Of a stretch of 64,000 nt of DNA, positions 53,155 to 58,405 are shown one piece after another. A program made the position numbers and the translations under genes. This DNA comes from Chloroflexota bacterium (GTDB taxonomy: Bacteria; Chloroflexota; Dehalococcoidia; Tepidiformales; Tepidiformaceae): positions 1 to 64,000 of the forward strand of contig JAPPBY010000036.1 in the NCBI GenBank assembly GCA_026702615.1, given 5' to 3'. Positions within the stretch are counted from its first letter, which is position 1, and every line of letters begins with the position of its first letter. The notes below the pieces were generated by a model, which worked only from the letters and a program-made list of their open reading frames with translations, did not search any database and had not been told where the DNA came from.

Positions 53155-54363
53155 CTAGAAACGCAGGGGGAGCTGGCCCCACGAACGGAAATGCTTGCTG
53201 AGGAAGCGCCACTGGCGCTCGTCGCCGTAGTGCGAGCCCGCATCGCGGCCGTAGAGACGGTCGGGCGGGCCGGCGAGCTGCTGGTAGCGGAGGGTGGCGA
53301 CCTCCTGGCCGTCTTCGAGCATGAAGGGCACGTCGTGGGCGCGCACCTCAAGGACGGCGGGGAGCCCATTGGGGACGCCAGCGCCGAAGCCGGGGTCGAA
53401 GAACCCGGCGTAGTGGGTGCGGAGCTCGCCGCTGGTCGGGTCGAAGGGGACCATCTCGGCGGCGAGCTCGGCGGGGATGGCGATCTGCTCCCGGGAGCGG
53501 AGGAGATAGAACTCCTCGGGTTCGAGCACGAGCTGGTTGGCGGGCCAGATCGCTTCCCAGAACTCGCGTGGGTCGTGGTCCCTGTTTGCCAGGTCGAGGA
53601 GGGAGCTGTTGCGCCTCGCCTTGAAGCCGACGGGCATGACCCCGCCGTCGCCGTCCCCGGCGTCGGGCTCATCGGGTGAGGGGCGAAGCTGGATCCGCAC
53701 AGTCTCGGGGGCGGACGGGGGGAGGGCGGGGGGAGCGTCACCACCGGAGGGGTCCTCGACAATGAAGCGCAACTGGTTGAGGGCCATGCCGGCGTGCACC
53801 TTCACGAGGAACGAGCGGGAGAACACCTCGAGCCAGAGGGCGCCCTCGTAGCCGGGAGCGATGTCGTCGAAGCGGTGGGAGTAGTCGGTGACGACGCGGG
53901 TGAAGATGTCGACGCGGCCGGTGGAGCTCTTGGGGTTGGTGAAGGCGCGGACGTTGTCGGGCAGCCGGAGGCCCTCCATGAGCGGGATCAGGTAGGGGCG
54001 CTTCGGTTCGAGGATGCCGCCGTTGCGAATGTCGATGCCCTTGTCGATCTGGAGGTCCGTGAGGCGCTCGCGGACGGTGCAGTCGCCTGGGAGGAAGCTG
54101 GAGCCAATGCGGAAGGCAGTAGGGCCGAGGAGGAGGTCTAGGCTGGCGGGCTGGAAGCCGCTCTCGGGAATCTCGACGGCGGTGGTGGTGAGGATGCCGA
54201 GGCGCTCCGCTTCCCGCAGGGTCTGGCGGGGGACGACGCCGGGGCGCAGGCTCCAGGTCTCGGGCCAGACGGGCTCCGCGGGAGGCGGCGGGCACCACGG
54301 GGCAGCAGCCTGCTCCCCCTCGGTAGGCTCGATCTGGTGGGACACGTCCACTCCCTCAGACAT
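53155..54363 (-). CDS. dcd: 2'-deoxycytidine 5'-triphosphate deaminase (two-domain DCD)
   Basis: 402-residue member of the long two-domain dCTP deaminase family, as in Alphaproteobacteria. First half: PASLDLLLGPTAFRIGSSFL, TNPKSSTGRVDIFTRVV and GYEGALWLEVF; second half repeats a DCD/dUTPase-type fold with EEFYLLRSREQIAIP and FFDPGFGAG. It supplies dUTP/dUMP for thymidylate synthesis, which in this window is made by ThyX. Start ATG 54363; no strong ribosome-binding site. Confidence 0.9.
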   Translation of the reverse strand: MSEGVDVSHQIEPTEGEQAAAPWCPPPPAEPVWPETWSLRPGVVPRQTLREAERLGILTTTAVEIPESGFQPASLDLLLGPTAFRIGSSFLPGDCTVRERLTDLQIDKGIDIRNGGILEPKRPYLIPLMEGLRLPDNVRAFTNPKSSTGRVDIFTRVVTDYSHRFDDIAPGYEGALWLEVFSRSFLVKVHAGMALNQLRFIVEDPSGGDAPPALPPSAPETVRIQLRPSPDEPDAGDGDGGVMPVGFKARRNSSLLDLANRDHDPREFWEAIWPANQLVLEPEEFYLLRSREQIAIPAELAAEMVPFDPTSGELRTHYAGFFDPGFGAGVPNGLPAVLEVRAHDVPFMLEDGQEVATLRYQQLAGPPDRLYGRDAGSHYGDERQWRFLSKHFRSWGQLPLRF

Positions 54364-54434: not shown

Positions 54435-54773
54435 TCAGCCCTCCGCGGCGGCCCGGCGCTCCCGCGCCTCGATGGAGTAGGGCAACTCGTTCATGAACTC
54501 GAGCTCCTCCTCTTCGAGGCAATCGCCGAGGCCCTTCGACCATTCACTGAATTCCGGATCCTTGCCGGCGACCTCGAGCACGGACCGAACGGCGTTGGCG
54601 TCGGGCATCTCCCAGAGGTCGTAGCAGCGGTTCAGGCGGCCGATGCTGTTCTGGTAGGCGCCGTGCAGGCGCCAGCCGTTCTTTTCGAGGACGGGCACGA
54701 GGTGCGACATGATCTCCTGGAATTCCTGGGTCTTGCCGTACTTGCACTCCAGGCGAACGAGCATGAAAGGCAT
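54435..54773 (-). CDS. NIPSNAP-like dimeric alpha-beta barrel protein
   Basis: 112 residues with one ferredoxin-like fold: an initial LVRLECKYGKTQEFQEIM helix, a WRLHGAYQNSIGRLNRCYDLWEMPDANAV middle (split by turns) and an acidic C-terminal helix. Resembles NIPSNAP/ABM-type small oxidoreductase-like proteins, with unknown function. It starts 40 bases after the SelW-like selenoprotein gene on the same strand, so the two may be co-transcribed. Confidence 0.75.
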   Translation of the reverse strand: MPFMLVRLECKYGKTQEFQEIMSHLVPVLEKNGWRLHGAYQNSIGRLNRCYDLWEMPDANAVRSVLEVAGKDPEFSEWSKGLGDCLEEEELEFMNELPYSIEARERRAAAEG

Positions 54774-54813
54774 TTGGGAAACCTCCGGTTTCGCGCTTTG
54801 CTGTTGGCCTTAA

Positions 54814-55065
54814 CTACGGGAGTCGGGCGGCGATTGCATCCTCCAGCTCCTGGATCTCGGGGAAGCGGCCCTCTGCCTGCTTCGAGTAAACGAGGTCGCC
54901 ATCGACCTGGACCTCGAAGGCGCCGGATTCGCCGGGGATGAGGGTGAGGGAGGCGGTTTGCTCGGCGAACTTGGCGAGGAGTTCCTGGGCCGTCCACGCG
55001 GCCCGCGCGGTGTAGTCTCAGGGGACGCAGTATTCGATCGAGATCGCCAGGTTGTGCTGAGCCAT
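54814..55065 (-). CDS. SelW/Rdx-family selenoprotein with CxxU motif
   Basis: 83 residues when the TGA at 55018-55020 is read as selenocysteine. The product begins MAQHNLAISIEYCVP, then Sec16, then DYTARAAWTAQELL, and later GESGAFEVQVDGDLVYSK and EGRFPEIQELEDAI. Cys13-x-x-Sec16 after the first strand is the invariant redox motif of SelW/SelT/SelH (Rdx) thioredoxin-like proteins, and GxFEVxVDGxLVYSK is their second conserved block. GGAGGT seven bases upstream supports the ATG at 55065. A hairpin (54987-55004) follows the UGA. It is divergent from the UGSC gene and upstream of the NIPSNAP-like gene. Confidence 0.9.
54987..55004 (-). promoter_or_regulatory. Candidate bacterial SECIS hairpin in the SelW-like gene
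   Basis: On the minus strand GGGCC (55004-55000) and GGCCC (54991-54987) form a 5-bp stem with an eight-base loop GCGTGGAC starting 18 bases after the UGA. An alternative stem closer to the UGA (CCGCG with CGCG and a bulged T) also exists. Confidence 0.45.
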
Positions 55066-55156
55066 GGGAAGCACCTCCATGTCGGGGCTGTTAGCTGTTG
55101 GCCCCCGGCTATCGGACCTACGGCCAGTGTAGCGTCCTGAGCGGTGGGAGCGGGGC

Positions 55157-55162
55157 TATAAT
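55157..55162 (+). promoter_or_regulatory. Consensus -10 box of the UGSC selenoprotein gene
   Basis: Perfect TATAAT 32 bases before the ATG at 55195. No clear -35 at 17 bases upstream. It is the best -10 match seen in the window, and the transcript would have a leader with GGGGAGGG as ribosome-binding site. Confidence 0.5.
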
Positions 55163-55194
55163 CAGGCCACTCGCGGACTCCCGGGGAGGGCCCC

Positions 55195-55713
55195 ATGACC
55201 ACGATTCTCGACCCCACGGACGAGCGCGTTCCAGTACGGCGCTCACTCACGCAGCGGCCGGAGGCAATCAGCGGAACGGTCGCGCTGCTGGATATCTCGA
55301 AGCCCCGGGGCGACGTCCTGCTCGACCAGCTGGAGACGCGCCTGCGGGAGCGGCTCCCCGAGGTGGACGTGCTGCGCTACAGCAAGCCCACGTTTACGAA
55401 ACCGGCCCCGGAAGCGCTGAAGCAGGAGCTGGCGAAGGAGGCCGACTTCGTCGTCGAAGGGTTGGCCGACTGAGGGTCGTGCACGACGTGCAGTGTGCAC
55501 GACACGACCTGGCTGGAAATCAACGGAATCCCCTCGGTGTTCATCGCCTCGGACGAGTTCGAGGAGGCGGCGGAGGCGCAGGCTGAGTCGCTGGGGCTGC
55601 CGGAAGTACGGCGGCTCTTCGTGCCCCATCCGATCCAGGACGCGAACGACGACGAGATGCGCGAGAAGGCGGACGCGATCGTCGAGGACGTGATCGCGGC
55701 GCTGATCGACTAG
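55195..55713 (+). CDS. UGSC-motif selenoprotein
   Basis: 172 residues if the TGA at 55471-55473 is selenocysteine. The frame is continuous: FVVEGLAD, Sec93, GSCTTCSVHDTTWLEINGIPSVFIASDEF. GLAD-U-GSC is the signature of the UGSC (seleno)protein family, in which the TGA-encoded residue precedes Gly-Ser-Cys; some members have Cys instead. The first 90 residues have the family lead-in (SGTVALLDISKPRGDVLLDQLE...). A perfect 9-bp hairpin follows the UGA. It is probably a thiol/selenol redox enzyme of unknown substrate. TATAAT and GGAGG precede the start. Divergent from the SelW-like gene. Confidence 0.92.
55476..55503 (+). promoter_or_regulatory. SECIS candidate in the UGSC gene
   Basis: GTCGTGCAC (55476-55484) and GTGCACGAC (55495-55503) pair perfectly over nine bases around a ten-base loop (55485-55494). 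The loop is 11-20 bases downstream of the UGA. This is the strongest of the three SECIS candidates. Confidence 0.7.
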
Positions 55714-55753: not shown

Positions 55754-55768
55754 CGATACACTGGCTCC

Positions 55769-58405
55769 ATGTCAAAGCTCGGCTTCATTAACCGTGTGGT
55801 AGGCGGCTCGAACGAGCGCGAGGTCAAGCGCCTCGGTTCCCGGATCGGCGCGATCGAGGATCTGGGCGAGGAGTTCTCGCGCCTCTCCGACGAAGAGCTG
55901 GGCGGACTGACGAAAGAGTTCCGGGAGCGTCTGGCGCAAGGCGAGACGCTCGACGACATCGCCCCCGAGGCGTTCGCGACGGTCCGGGAGATGGCCTGGC
56001 GCAAGGTGGAAGAGCGCCCCTATTCGGTGCAGCTGATGGGCATGATGGTGCTGCACCAGGGAAAGATCGCGGAGATGAAGACGGGCGAGGGGAAGACCCT
56101 CACCGCGATCGGGGCGCTCTACCTGAACGCGTTGGCGGGCAAGGGCGCCCACCTGGTGACCGTGAACGACTACCTGGCCCGTCGCGACGCTGCCTGGTAC
56201 GGACCCGTGTTCCACGCCCTCGGCATGACCCTGGGCGTCATCCAGAACGACCACATCCAGTACCTGTACGAGCCCGGCTACCGGCCGGGGGAGGACGGGG
56301 AAGGCGGTCTCGAGGACCTGCGCCCCTGTGAGCGTCGCGATGTGTACCGGACGGACGTGACGTACGGGACGAACAACGAGTTCGGGTTCGACTACCTGCG
56401 CGACAACATGGTGCGCGAGTCAGAGCTGAAGACGCAGCGGCCGCTCTTCTACGCGATCGTCGACGAGGTGGACAACATCCTCATCGACGAGGCGCGGACG
56501 CCGCTCATCATCAGCGGGCAGGCGGAGGAGGCGAGCGGGACGTACCAACAGTTCGCGCGGGCGGTGCGGGGCCTGCACGTCGAGCTCGACTACCAGATCG
56601 ACCAGAAGGCGAAGCACGTGGCCCTGACGGAGACGGGCATCGCCAAGATCGAGCGGGCGCTCAGGGTCGACAACGTCTTCGGGGGGGATCCGCGGGTCGC
56701 GCGGCACCTGGAGGCGGCGCTCGACGCGGAGTACCTGAAGCGTCCCGACCGCGAATACGTGGTGCGCAACCGCGAGATCGTCATCGTCGACGAGTTCACG
56801 GGGCGGATGATGCCGGGGCGGCGGTGGAGCCACGGCATCCACCAGGCGGTGGAGGCGAAGGAAAACGTTCCCATCCAGCGGGAGTCGCTGACGTACGCGA
56901 CGATCACGTTCCAGAACTACTTCCGCCTGTACGAGAAGCTGGCGGGGATGACGGGAACGGCGGAAACGGAGGCGGAGGAGTTCGCGAAGATCTACGACCT
57001 GGACGTGGTGGTCATTCCCACGAACAAGCCGATGATGCGCGACGACCAGGAAGACGTGGTCTACATCAACGAGAAGGCGAAGTTCGCGGCGGTGGTGGAG
57101 GAGATCGTCGGGATGCACGGGCATGGGCGGCCGGTGCTGGTGGGCACGACGTCGATCGAGAAGTCGGAGTACCTGGCGACGCTGCTGAAGCGGCGCGGCA
57201 TCGACCACGAGGTGCTGAACGCGAAGCAGCACGAGCGCGAGGCGCACATCGTGGAGAACGCGGGCGAGCCGGGGGCGGTGGTGATCGCGACGAACATGGC
57301 GGGGCGCGGCACGGACATCAAGCTGCGGGAGGGGGTCGCGCAGGCGGGCGGGCTGCACGTCATCGGGACGGAGCGGCACGAATCGCGCCGCATCGACAAC
57401 CAGCTGCGGGGGCGGTCGGGCCGGCAGGGCGATCCGGGCTCGAGCCGCTTCTTCGTCTCGTTCGGGGACGACATCATGCAGCGCTTCGCCCCGGACTGGG
57501 TGCCGGGAATGCTGGAGAAGATGGGGATGACCGAGGACCTGCCCCTCGAATCGCGCATGGTGACGCGCGCGATCGAGCAGGCGCAGCAGAAGGTGGAGGG
57601 CTACAACTTCGACATCCGCAAGCGGCTGGTGGAGTTCGACGACGTCATCAACGAGCAGCGAGCGGTGCTGTACACGGAGCGGGACAAGGTGCTGGAGGGG
57701 GCGGACGTCCGGGAGAACGTGTTCTCGTTCGTGACGGAGGAGGTGGACGGCATCGTCGAGCGGAACAGCGACGAAGGGTTCGACGCGAGCCTGGTGCACA
57801 CGGAGCTGGGCGAGATTATGCCGCCGGACATCCTGCCGAGTCTCGAGGAGATCGAGGATGCTCGGGAACGCGTCGCGGATACGGCACTCGACCGCATCGA
57901 GGATCGCTACGAAGAGATCGAGGAGGCGGTGGGCGAGGAGATCGCGCGCAGGATGGAGCAGTGGCTGCTGCTGGAGTCGATCGACTACCACTGGCGCCAG
58001 CACCTGACGGCGGTGGAGGAGGTGCGGCAGAGCGTGGGCCTGCAAGCGTATGCGCAGGTCGACCCACTGGTGGCCTTCAAGCGCGAGGGCTACGACATGT
58101 TCCAGCAGCTGCAGGGGAACATCCGGCGGCAGGTGGCGCAGGCGGTCTTCAAGATGCGGGCGAAGGACCTTCCGCCGCCTCCGCCTCCGAACGGGGCGAC
58201 CGCCCGGCGTCCGGACGCACCGCAGGCGCCCGTGCAGGCACGGGGCAACGGCGCCGCACCCGGCGGCAACGGGCAGGCGCGCGGCAGGGCAGCCGCGGCC
58301 ACCGCGACCGCGCCAAGGCCAGGTGGCAAGAAGATCGGGCGGAACGACCCGTGCTACTGCGGCAGCGGGATCAAGTACAAGAAGTGCTGCGGCAAGCTCG
58401 CCTGA
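55769..58405 (+). CDS. secA: Preprotein translocase ATPase SecA
   Basis: Drives Sec-dependent export. 878 residues with Walker A in AEMKTGEGKTLTAIG near residue 100, DEAD-like VDEVDNILIDEARTPLIISG, the helicase-2 segment GTDIKLREGVAQAGGLHVIGTERHESRRIDNQLRGRSGRQGDPG (distributed motifs V-VI), and a C-terminal SEC-C zinc domain (NDPCYCGSG...KKCCGK). A Pro/Ala/Gly-rich linker separates the last domain. TACACT ends six bases before the ATG (leaderless). Confidence 0.98.
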   Translation: MSKLGFINRVVGGSNEREVKRLGSRIGAIEDLGEEFSRLSDEELGGLTKEFRERLAQGETLDDIAPEAFATVREMAWRKVEERPYSVQLMGMMVLHQGKIAEMKTGEGKTLTAIGALYLNALAGKGAHLVTVNDYLARRDAAWYGPVFHALGMTLGVIQNDHIQYLYEPGYRPGEDGEGGLEDLRPCERRDVYRTDVTYGTNNEFGFDYLRDNMVRESELKTQRPLFYAIVDEVDNILIDEARTPLIISGQAEEASGTYQQFARAVRGLHVELDYQIDQKAKHVALTETGIAKIERALRVDNVFGGDPRVARHLEAALDAEYLKRPDREYVVRNREIVIVDEFTGRMMPGRRWSHGIHQAVEAKENVPIQRESLTYATITFQNYFRLYEKLAGMTGTAETEAEEFAKIYDLDVVVIPTNKPMMRDDQEDVVYINEKAKFAAVVEEIVGMHGHGRPVLVGTTSIEKSEYLATLLKRRGIDHEVLNAKQHEREAHIVENAGEPGAVVIATNMAGRGTDIKLREGVAQAGGLHVIGTERHESRRIDNQLRGRSGRQGDPGSSRFFVSFGDDIMQRFAPDWVPGMLEKMGMTEDLPLESRMVTRAIEQAQQKVEGYNFDIRKRLVEFDDVINEQRAVLYTERDKVLEGADVRENVFSFVTEEVDGIVERNSDEGFDASLVHTELGEIMPPDILPSLEEIEDARERVADTALDRIEDRYEEIEEAVGEEIARRMEQWLLLESIDYHWRQHLTAVEEVRQSVGLQAYAQVDPLVAFKREGYDMFQQLQGNIRRQVAQAVFKMRAKDLPPPPPPNGATARRPDAPQAPVQARGNGAAPGGNGQARGRAAAATATAPRPGGKKIGRNDPCYCGSGIKYKKCCGKLA

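Follow-up and report, generated by a model that had tools for sequence, protein, structure and literature searches.

Our analysis links the UGSC family of selenoproteins both to glycine reductase selenoprotein B (GrdB), by way of the Sec domain, and to a constant partner, UNK1, and this UGSC–UNK1 system with its GrdB link is a more important result than the pairing of a UGSC gene with a SelW/Rdx gene that is found in the window, the whole 64-kb stretch of DNA analysed here. With a probability of about one half, the UGSC protein of the window (UGSC1) is the selenol subunit of a GrdB-like two-component enzyme formed with UNK1 and is re-reduced by a thioredoxin-fold module, the neighbouring SelW/Rdx protein (Rdx1) being an extra or alternative carrier. 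More tentatively, UGSC–UNK1 could represent a widespread, undescribed GrdB-like selenol enzyme of bacteria, with a Cys form in haloarchaea, whose thioredoxin-fold reductase is exchangeable and is either fused to UNK1 or provided by SelW/Rdx, depending on the lineage.

The divergent Rdx1/UGSC1 locus

The SelW/Rdx-family gene Rdx1 (54814–55065, minus strand, stop at 54814) and the UGSC-family gene UGSC1 (55195–55713, plus strand) are arranged head to head, 129 bases apart. Rdx1 encodes a CVPU motif with its Sec codon TGA at 55020–55018, and UGSC1 encodes a DUGSC motif with its Sec codon TGA at 55471–55473. The gap of 129 bases corresponds to an Rdx1 start at the ATG at 55065, which is preceded by a good Shine-Dalgarno sequence, GGAGGT (GGAGGTGCTTCCCATG); the start of the longer open reading frame lies at 55080. 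Rdx1 matches PF10262 with an E-value of 4.7e-26 and 91.2 bits (curated cut-off 22.6), and resembles the SelW/Rdx family (PF10262, TIGR02174 CXXU_selWTH) in its CxxU motif, its length and its score over the cut-off. UGSC1 is a full-length member of the UGSC family, matching PF24696 (E = 2.3e-49) and NF041046 (169.5 bits, curated cut-off 125) with the UGSC motif present. The divergent SelW-like/UGSC pair proposed in the initial annotation is thus recovered, with both genes in place and both families matched over their cut-offs, and so is the NIPSNAP-like gene that was said to follow the SelW-like gene (54435–54773, minus strand; PF07978, 7.7e-10). This gene is in turn followed by a gene for a DCD-type 2'-deoxycytidine 5'-triphosphate deaminase (53155–54363, minus strand). 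At the other end, secA (55769–58405, plus strand; translation identified by eye) lies 55 bases 3' of UGSC1. Both the deaminase gene and secA are part of a conserved block.

As far as sequence can show, both UGAs are read as selenocysteine, in agreement with the initial annotation of two UGA genes. The genome carries the complete machinery, SelA, SelB, SelD and tRNA-Sec, all over their cut-offs; the tRNA-Sec is located on contig C36, ARAGORN found no tRNA within the window or near selB, and the SelD gene has an in-frame TGA of its own. Among the matches listed in the 38 genomes of the family, each UGSC gene contains exactly one TGA. Homologues with Cys at the Sec site occur in both families, as GDCGSC in the UGSC of three loci (L213, L215 and L216) and as CAQC in Rdx2, a second Rdx protein of this genome.

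A SECIS hairpin 3' of the UGA is strongly supported for UGSC and moderately supported for Rdx1. The UGSC1 hairpin (55487–55501, plus strand) has a 6-bp stem formed by positions +17 to +22 and +26 to +31 from the UGA, with the loop GUG. Across 121 distinct sequences, 96.7% of the cells in this stem with its GUN loop are paired, and double changes occur at five of the six pairs in 51 cells (shuffle mean 13, maximum 22), whereas pairing falls to 15–57% when the partner strand is slid. The SECIS-like hairpin of Rdx1 (54987–55004, minus strand) has a 6-bp stem formed by positions +17 to +22 and +29 to +34, with a 6-nt loop. It is 100% paired with one covarying pair among 14 distinct close orthologues, and 87% paired over 25 sequences as compared with 26–42% when slid. 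We used the evidence of alignments because folding of single sequences was not significant for the Rdx1 hairpin and reached z = −1.9 for UGSC1. An Rfam search for SECIS gave no hit at the gathering threshold, and the hits below it were chance matches. The Sec machinery of the genome, the single TGA per listed UGSC gene and the covarying hairpin downstream of each UGA argue that these codons are not there by chance.

The 129-base region between the two genes (55066–55194) was analysed as sequence and as an alignment of the genus genomes. A putative −10 element of the UGSC1 promoter, TATAAT, lies at 55157–55162 on the plus strand. Consistent with its earlier description as the best −10 box in the window, it is the sole exact copy on both strands of these 64 kb (69% GC), and it is kept as CTATAAT in all eight genus genomes with the tight arrangement and as CTATACT in the ninth. 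A second conserved block of the gap, AGTGTAGCG, is present in the same 8/8 tight genomes and reads CGCTACACT on the minus strand, where TACACT (55126–55131) is a putative −10 element of the Rdx1 promoter. The extended form CGnTACACTGG has two copies in the 64 kb, one before Rdx1 (55124–55134, minus strand) and one before secA (55754–55764, plus strand), possibly a promoter type common to both genes; the secA copy would give a nearly leaderless transcript. A scan for a consensus sigma-70 promoter and a terminator found none, and no consensus −35 was found. In the simplest reading, two divergent promoters overlap, with their −35 regions lying between both −10 boxes, and Rdx1 and UGSC1 would be co-regulated from this region.

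The UGSC domain and its partner UNK1

Profile comparisons indicate that UGSC is related to GrdB through a homologous Sec domain, but is not a member of the GrdB family. The GrdB model TIGR01917 is matched by 15 of 19 diverse UGSC members, with a best E-value of 8e-7, and hhalign aligns UGSC with GrdB at E = 2e-6 to 3e-6, placing Sec on Sec and aligning the HP-x-G motif. By comparison, the controls gave 0.12 for thioredoxin-like proteins and 0.27 for Rdx. This similarity is distant and extends over about 90 residues, a Sec domain that UGSC has in common with both GrdB and PrdB. UGSC1 scores only 13.9 bits and the second UGSC of the genome (UGSC2) 27 bits against the TIGR01917 cut-off of 602.2. 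UGSC also differs from GrdB in being a stand-alone protein, about 172 aa in length, that is paired with UNK1. No match to GrdB or PrdB was found in the seven genus genomes searched, and UGSC is therefore not a glycine reductase accessory in these genomes. The GrdB/GrdE-like proteins FarB/FarE of fluoroacetate reductase have been described as acting on another substrate (PMC10838667).

The AlphaFold2 model of UGSC1 has a mean pLDDT of 95.3 and shows alternating alpha and beta elements with five strands. The model is structurally closest to azoreductase, flavodoxin, lumazine synthase and PurE, in a ranked list from which the absence of a fold proves nothing. Together, the profiles and the predicted structure favour an alpha/beta domain of the flavodoxin/Rossmann-like kind that is related to GrdB. 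Thioredoxin ancestry was considered and dropped, with no profile similarity of UGSC to thioredoxin-like or Rdx alignments. The GOS study, which names the 'UGSC-containing protein', suggested that it has a Trx-like fold and described a fusion domain, 'Unknown_1' (PMC2398784); our analysis differs in assigning a GrdB-related domain and in identifying UNK1 as a standing partner, and we suspect that 'Unknown_1' is perhaps UNK1.

UNK1 is an uncharacterised family of about 340–370 aa with the motif W-[TS]-D-G-L-P, for which there was no Pfam or NCBIfam match and no convincing match to a PDB chain. With UNK1 as query, 80 loci were fetched from a broad genome set, spanning Chloroflexota, Proteobacteria, Rokubacteria, Actinomycetota, Bacillota and haloarchaea. 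UGSC adjoins UNK1 in 76 of these, and two of the remaining four start at a contig end. Of 77 full UGSC matches, 23 continue in frame through UNK1, giving natural fusions. The presence of the two families also agrees among the 38 family genomes (both in 23, UGSC only in 2, UNK1 only in 1, neither in 12; Fisher p = 4e-7), the exceptions being G017 and G018 with UGSC only and G011 with UNK1 only, all incomplete genomes. The AlphaFold2 model of a UGSC–UNK1 fusion reached a pTM of 0.90; a PDB structure search with it gave no clear relative of the UNK1 half, the list being filled by the UGSC half. By eye, several isolates and bins show catabolic-looking genes around UGSC–UNK1, a context more in keeping with a degradative enzyme than with an antioxidant.

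Several variants were seen among these loci. Fusions with an in-frame TGA include L182, L183, L185, L191, L193 and L209, among others, and the isolate Neobacillus bataviensis has one in which the TGA is kept (L193:3338-4990, plus strand). Cys-form UGSC (CGSC) stands beside UNK1 in L213, L215, L216 and L230, from Sphingomonadales, the haloarchaeon Natrialba asiatica and a Binatia bin. The third motif position of UGSC is not fixed, since relatives with UGGC or UGAC occur (L188, L190, L196, L207, L211, L224 and L229). A search of viral contigs with UGSC1 found no relative.

UNK1 and UGSC1 are unlinked in the genus of the window. In the genome of the window there is no UNK1 beside UGSC1; a UNK1 gene is instead located on contig C15 (L248:4272-5840, plus strand), and its product bears at the N terminus a thioredoxin-like domain of the AhpC/TSA type containing a CPTC motif. 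The thioredoxin-like domain fused to UNK1 of the UGSC1 lineage matches PF00578 with E = 6e-6 and 2e-8. This fusion occurs in 15 loci of 12 genomes, two of which belong to another family. It also accompanies UGSC1-lineage proteins outside the genus, both in further genera and in family f2, adjoining UGSC1 in some. The neighbours of the orphan UNK1 on C15 are genes for a peroxiredoxin, a rhodanese and a gamma-glutamyltranspeptidase. The closest named relatives of the UNK1 of this genome indicate that its host probably belongs to Chloroflexota, class Dehalococcoidia.

In GrdB chemistry, a selenol attacks the substrate carbon that bears the leaving group. By analogy, UGSC1 would be the selenol-bearing subunit, with its partner UNK1 encoded elsewhere on C15 and fused to the thioredoxin-like domain. 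The probable target of this selenol is an activated carbon–heteroatom bond in a small substrate that is bound together with UNK1, which would bind the substrate or complete the active site. The resulting selenoether or selenenyl-sulfide would be resolved by a thioredoxin-fold dithiol module, freeing the selenol. In this first system the module is fused to UNK1. In a second system of the same genome, where UNK1 lacks a fused domain, the candidate for this role is a CxxC Rdx.

Conservation of the pair and a second Rdx–UGSC operon

The initial annotation raised the question of whether selW-like and UGSC genes are neighbours in relatives, and within the genus (g1) they are. The block DCD–NIPSNAP–Rdx1/UGSC1–SecA is kept in eight of nine genus genomes, and in the ninth (G035) Rdx1 and UGSC1 keep their relative orientation but are separated by an 827-aa gene, while another small gene precedes secA. 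The divergent Rdx1/UGSC1 adjacency was found in no sampled genome outside g1. There, UGSC1 orthologues adjoin UNK1 or different genes, and the Rdx1 orthologues of three other genera (L148, L150 and L151) lie downstream of a nitroreductase gene.

The second system unites the two protein families again. On contig C2 of the same genome, UGSC2 starts 19 bases downstream of the gene for the CxxC protein Rdx2 and ends with its stop overlapping, at GTGA, the start of UNK1b, the third gene. This Rdx2–UGSC2–UNK1 operon occurs in the genus and also in two further genera of the family and two further families, three families in all (f1, f2 and f21). The UGSC2 proteins of the operon form one clade with 100/100 support, apart from UGSC1, and Rdx1 and Rdx2 also fall into separate clades, in a tree with few columns. 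An origin of both arrangements from a duplicated pair was rejected on the basis of these separate clades and the different neighbours. Because the clades are separate, the UGSC and Rdx families were united at least twice, in different arrangements, and this independent second pairing is the best evidence that makes a link between the families plausible.

The alternative that survives best is that Rdx1 and UGSC1 are neighbours without a joint function, Rdx1 being a general thiol/selenol reductase, UGSC1 being placed by secA, and a young genus having inherited an arrangement that overlapping promoters hold in place. We consider this explanation possible but somewhat doubtful. It accommodates the restriction of the pair to one genus, the changing partners of Rdx1 among genera, the adjacency of UGSC1 and secA in G017, where Rdx is absent, and the rare CGnTACACTGG box common to Rdx1 and secA, but it would require the two families to have paired by chance a second time, in the independent Rdx2–UGSC2 operon, which is unlikely.

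The electron path suggested in the initial annotation would in its strict form make Rdx1 the dedicated reductant of UGSC1, with the pair co-expressed for that purpose, and this we regard as unlikely. The same relative orientation of the two genes in 9/9 genus genomes, the repeated pairing of the families, the conservation of both −10-like boxes and the gene content of G028, which lacks the second system and has kept a single gene each for Rdx, UGSC and UNK1, are all consistent with a dedicated role. In three other genera, however, Rdx1 orthologues are found downstream of a nitroreductase gene, and Rdx is near UGSC/UNK1 in only 1 of the 80 loci fetched across the broad genome set, the constant partner of UGSC being UNK1, which in the UGSC1 lineage already has a thioredoxin-like domain. 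Across the 38 family genomes the presence of UGSC and Rdx is uncorrelated (both in 17, UGSC only in 8, Rdx only in 7, neither in 6; p = 0.49), so that 8 of the 25 UGSC-bearing genomes lack Rdx. A functional SelW–UGSC link therefore stays plausible through genus conservation and the second operon, whereas a dedicated path is unlikely; a shared Rdx1–UGSC1 electron path is possible but not general. Co-regulation alone, in response to selenium supply or redox state for instance and with no direct electron transfer, is still less probable. It would fit two Sec proteins whose divergent promoters probably overlap and have conserved −10-like boxes, but no regulator site was identified, and Rdx2 is a Cys form, so that a need for selenium cannot explain the second pairing.

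We thus favour UGSC1 as the selenol subunit of a GrdB-like enzyme with UNK1, in which the CxxU protein Rdx1 is likely to be an additional or alternative thiol-redox carrier specific to the genus. Such a redoxin role beside UGSC1 is reasonable because an Rdx gene is part of the second operon, where UNK1 lacks the fused module, and SelW may be a thioredoxin-fold module that feeds UGSC. We know of no established substrate for bacterial SelW/Rdx members, and to our knowledge a partner for bacterial SelW has been missing so far. If true, the exchange of modules between lineages would give bacterial SelW a physiological partner. With UGSC tied to GrdB and to a constant partner, and with two separate Rdx pairings, the proposal is directly testable on a few soluble proteins.

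Neighbouring selenoprotein genes have been described for Prx/SelW and for Prx-like/AhpD-like proteins (PMC2398784), and the operons grdA-grdB and prdB-prdC have been reviewed (PMC13188914). The Prx/SelW pair resembles Rdx1/UGSC1 in that two selenoprotein genes adjoin and one is SelW-like (PMC2398784). By comparison, a SelW–UGSC pair is absent from these described cases (PMC2398784, PMC13188914), and the arrangement found here is divergent. No description of SelW next to UGSC was found in the literature searched.

Two further observations concern the neighbourhood of Rdx genes. Tandem Rdx pairs, usually one Cys and one Sec form, occur in several genomes of the class (L148, L149, L106, L123 and L126). 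The gene inserted between Rdx1 and UGSC1 in G035 (L136:3140-5620, minus strand), which encodes 827 aa without a Pfam match, has a third-position GC of 0.68 as compared with about 0.97 in its neighbours.
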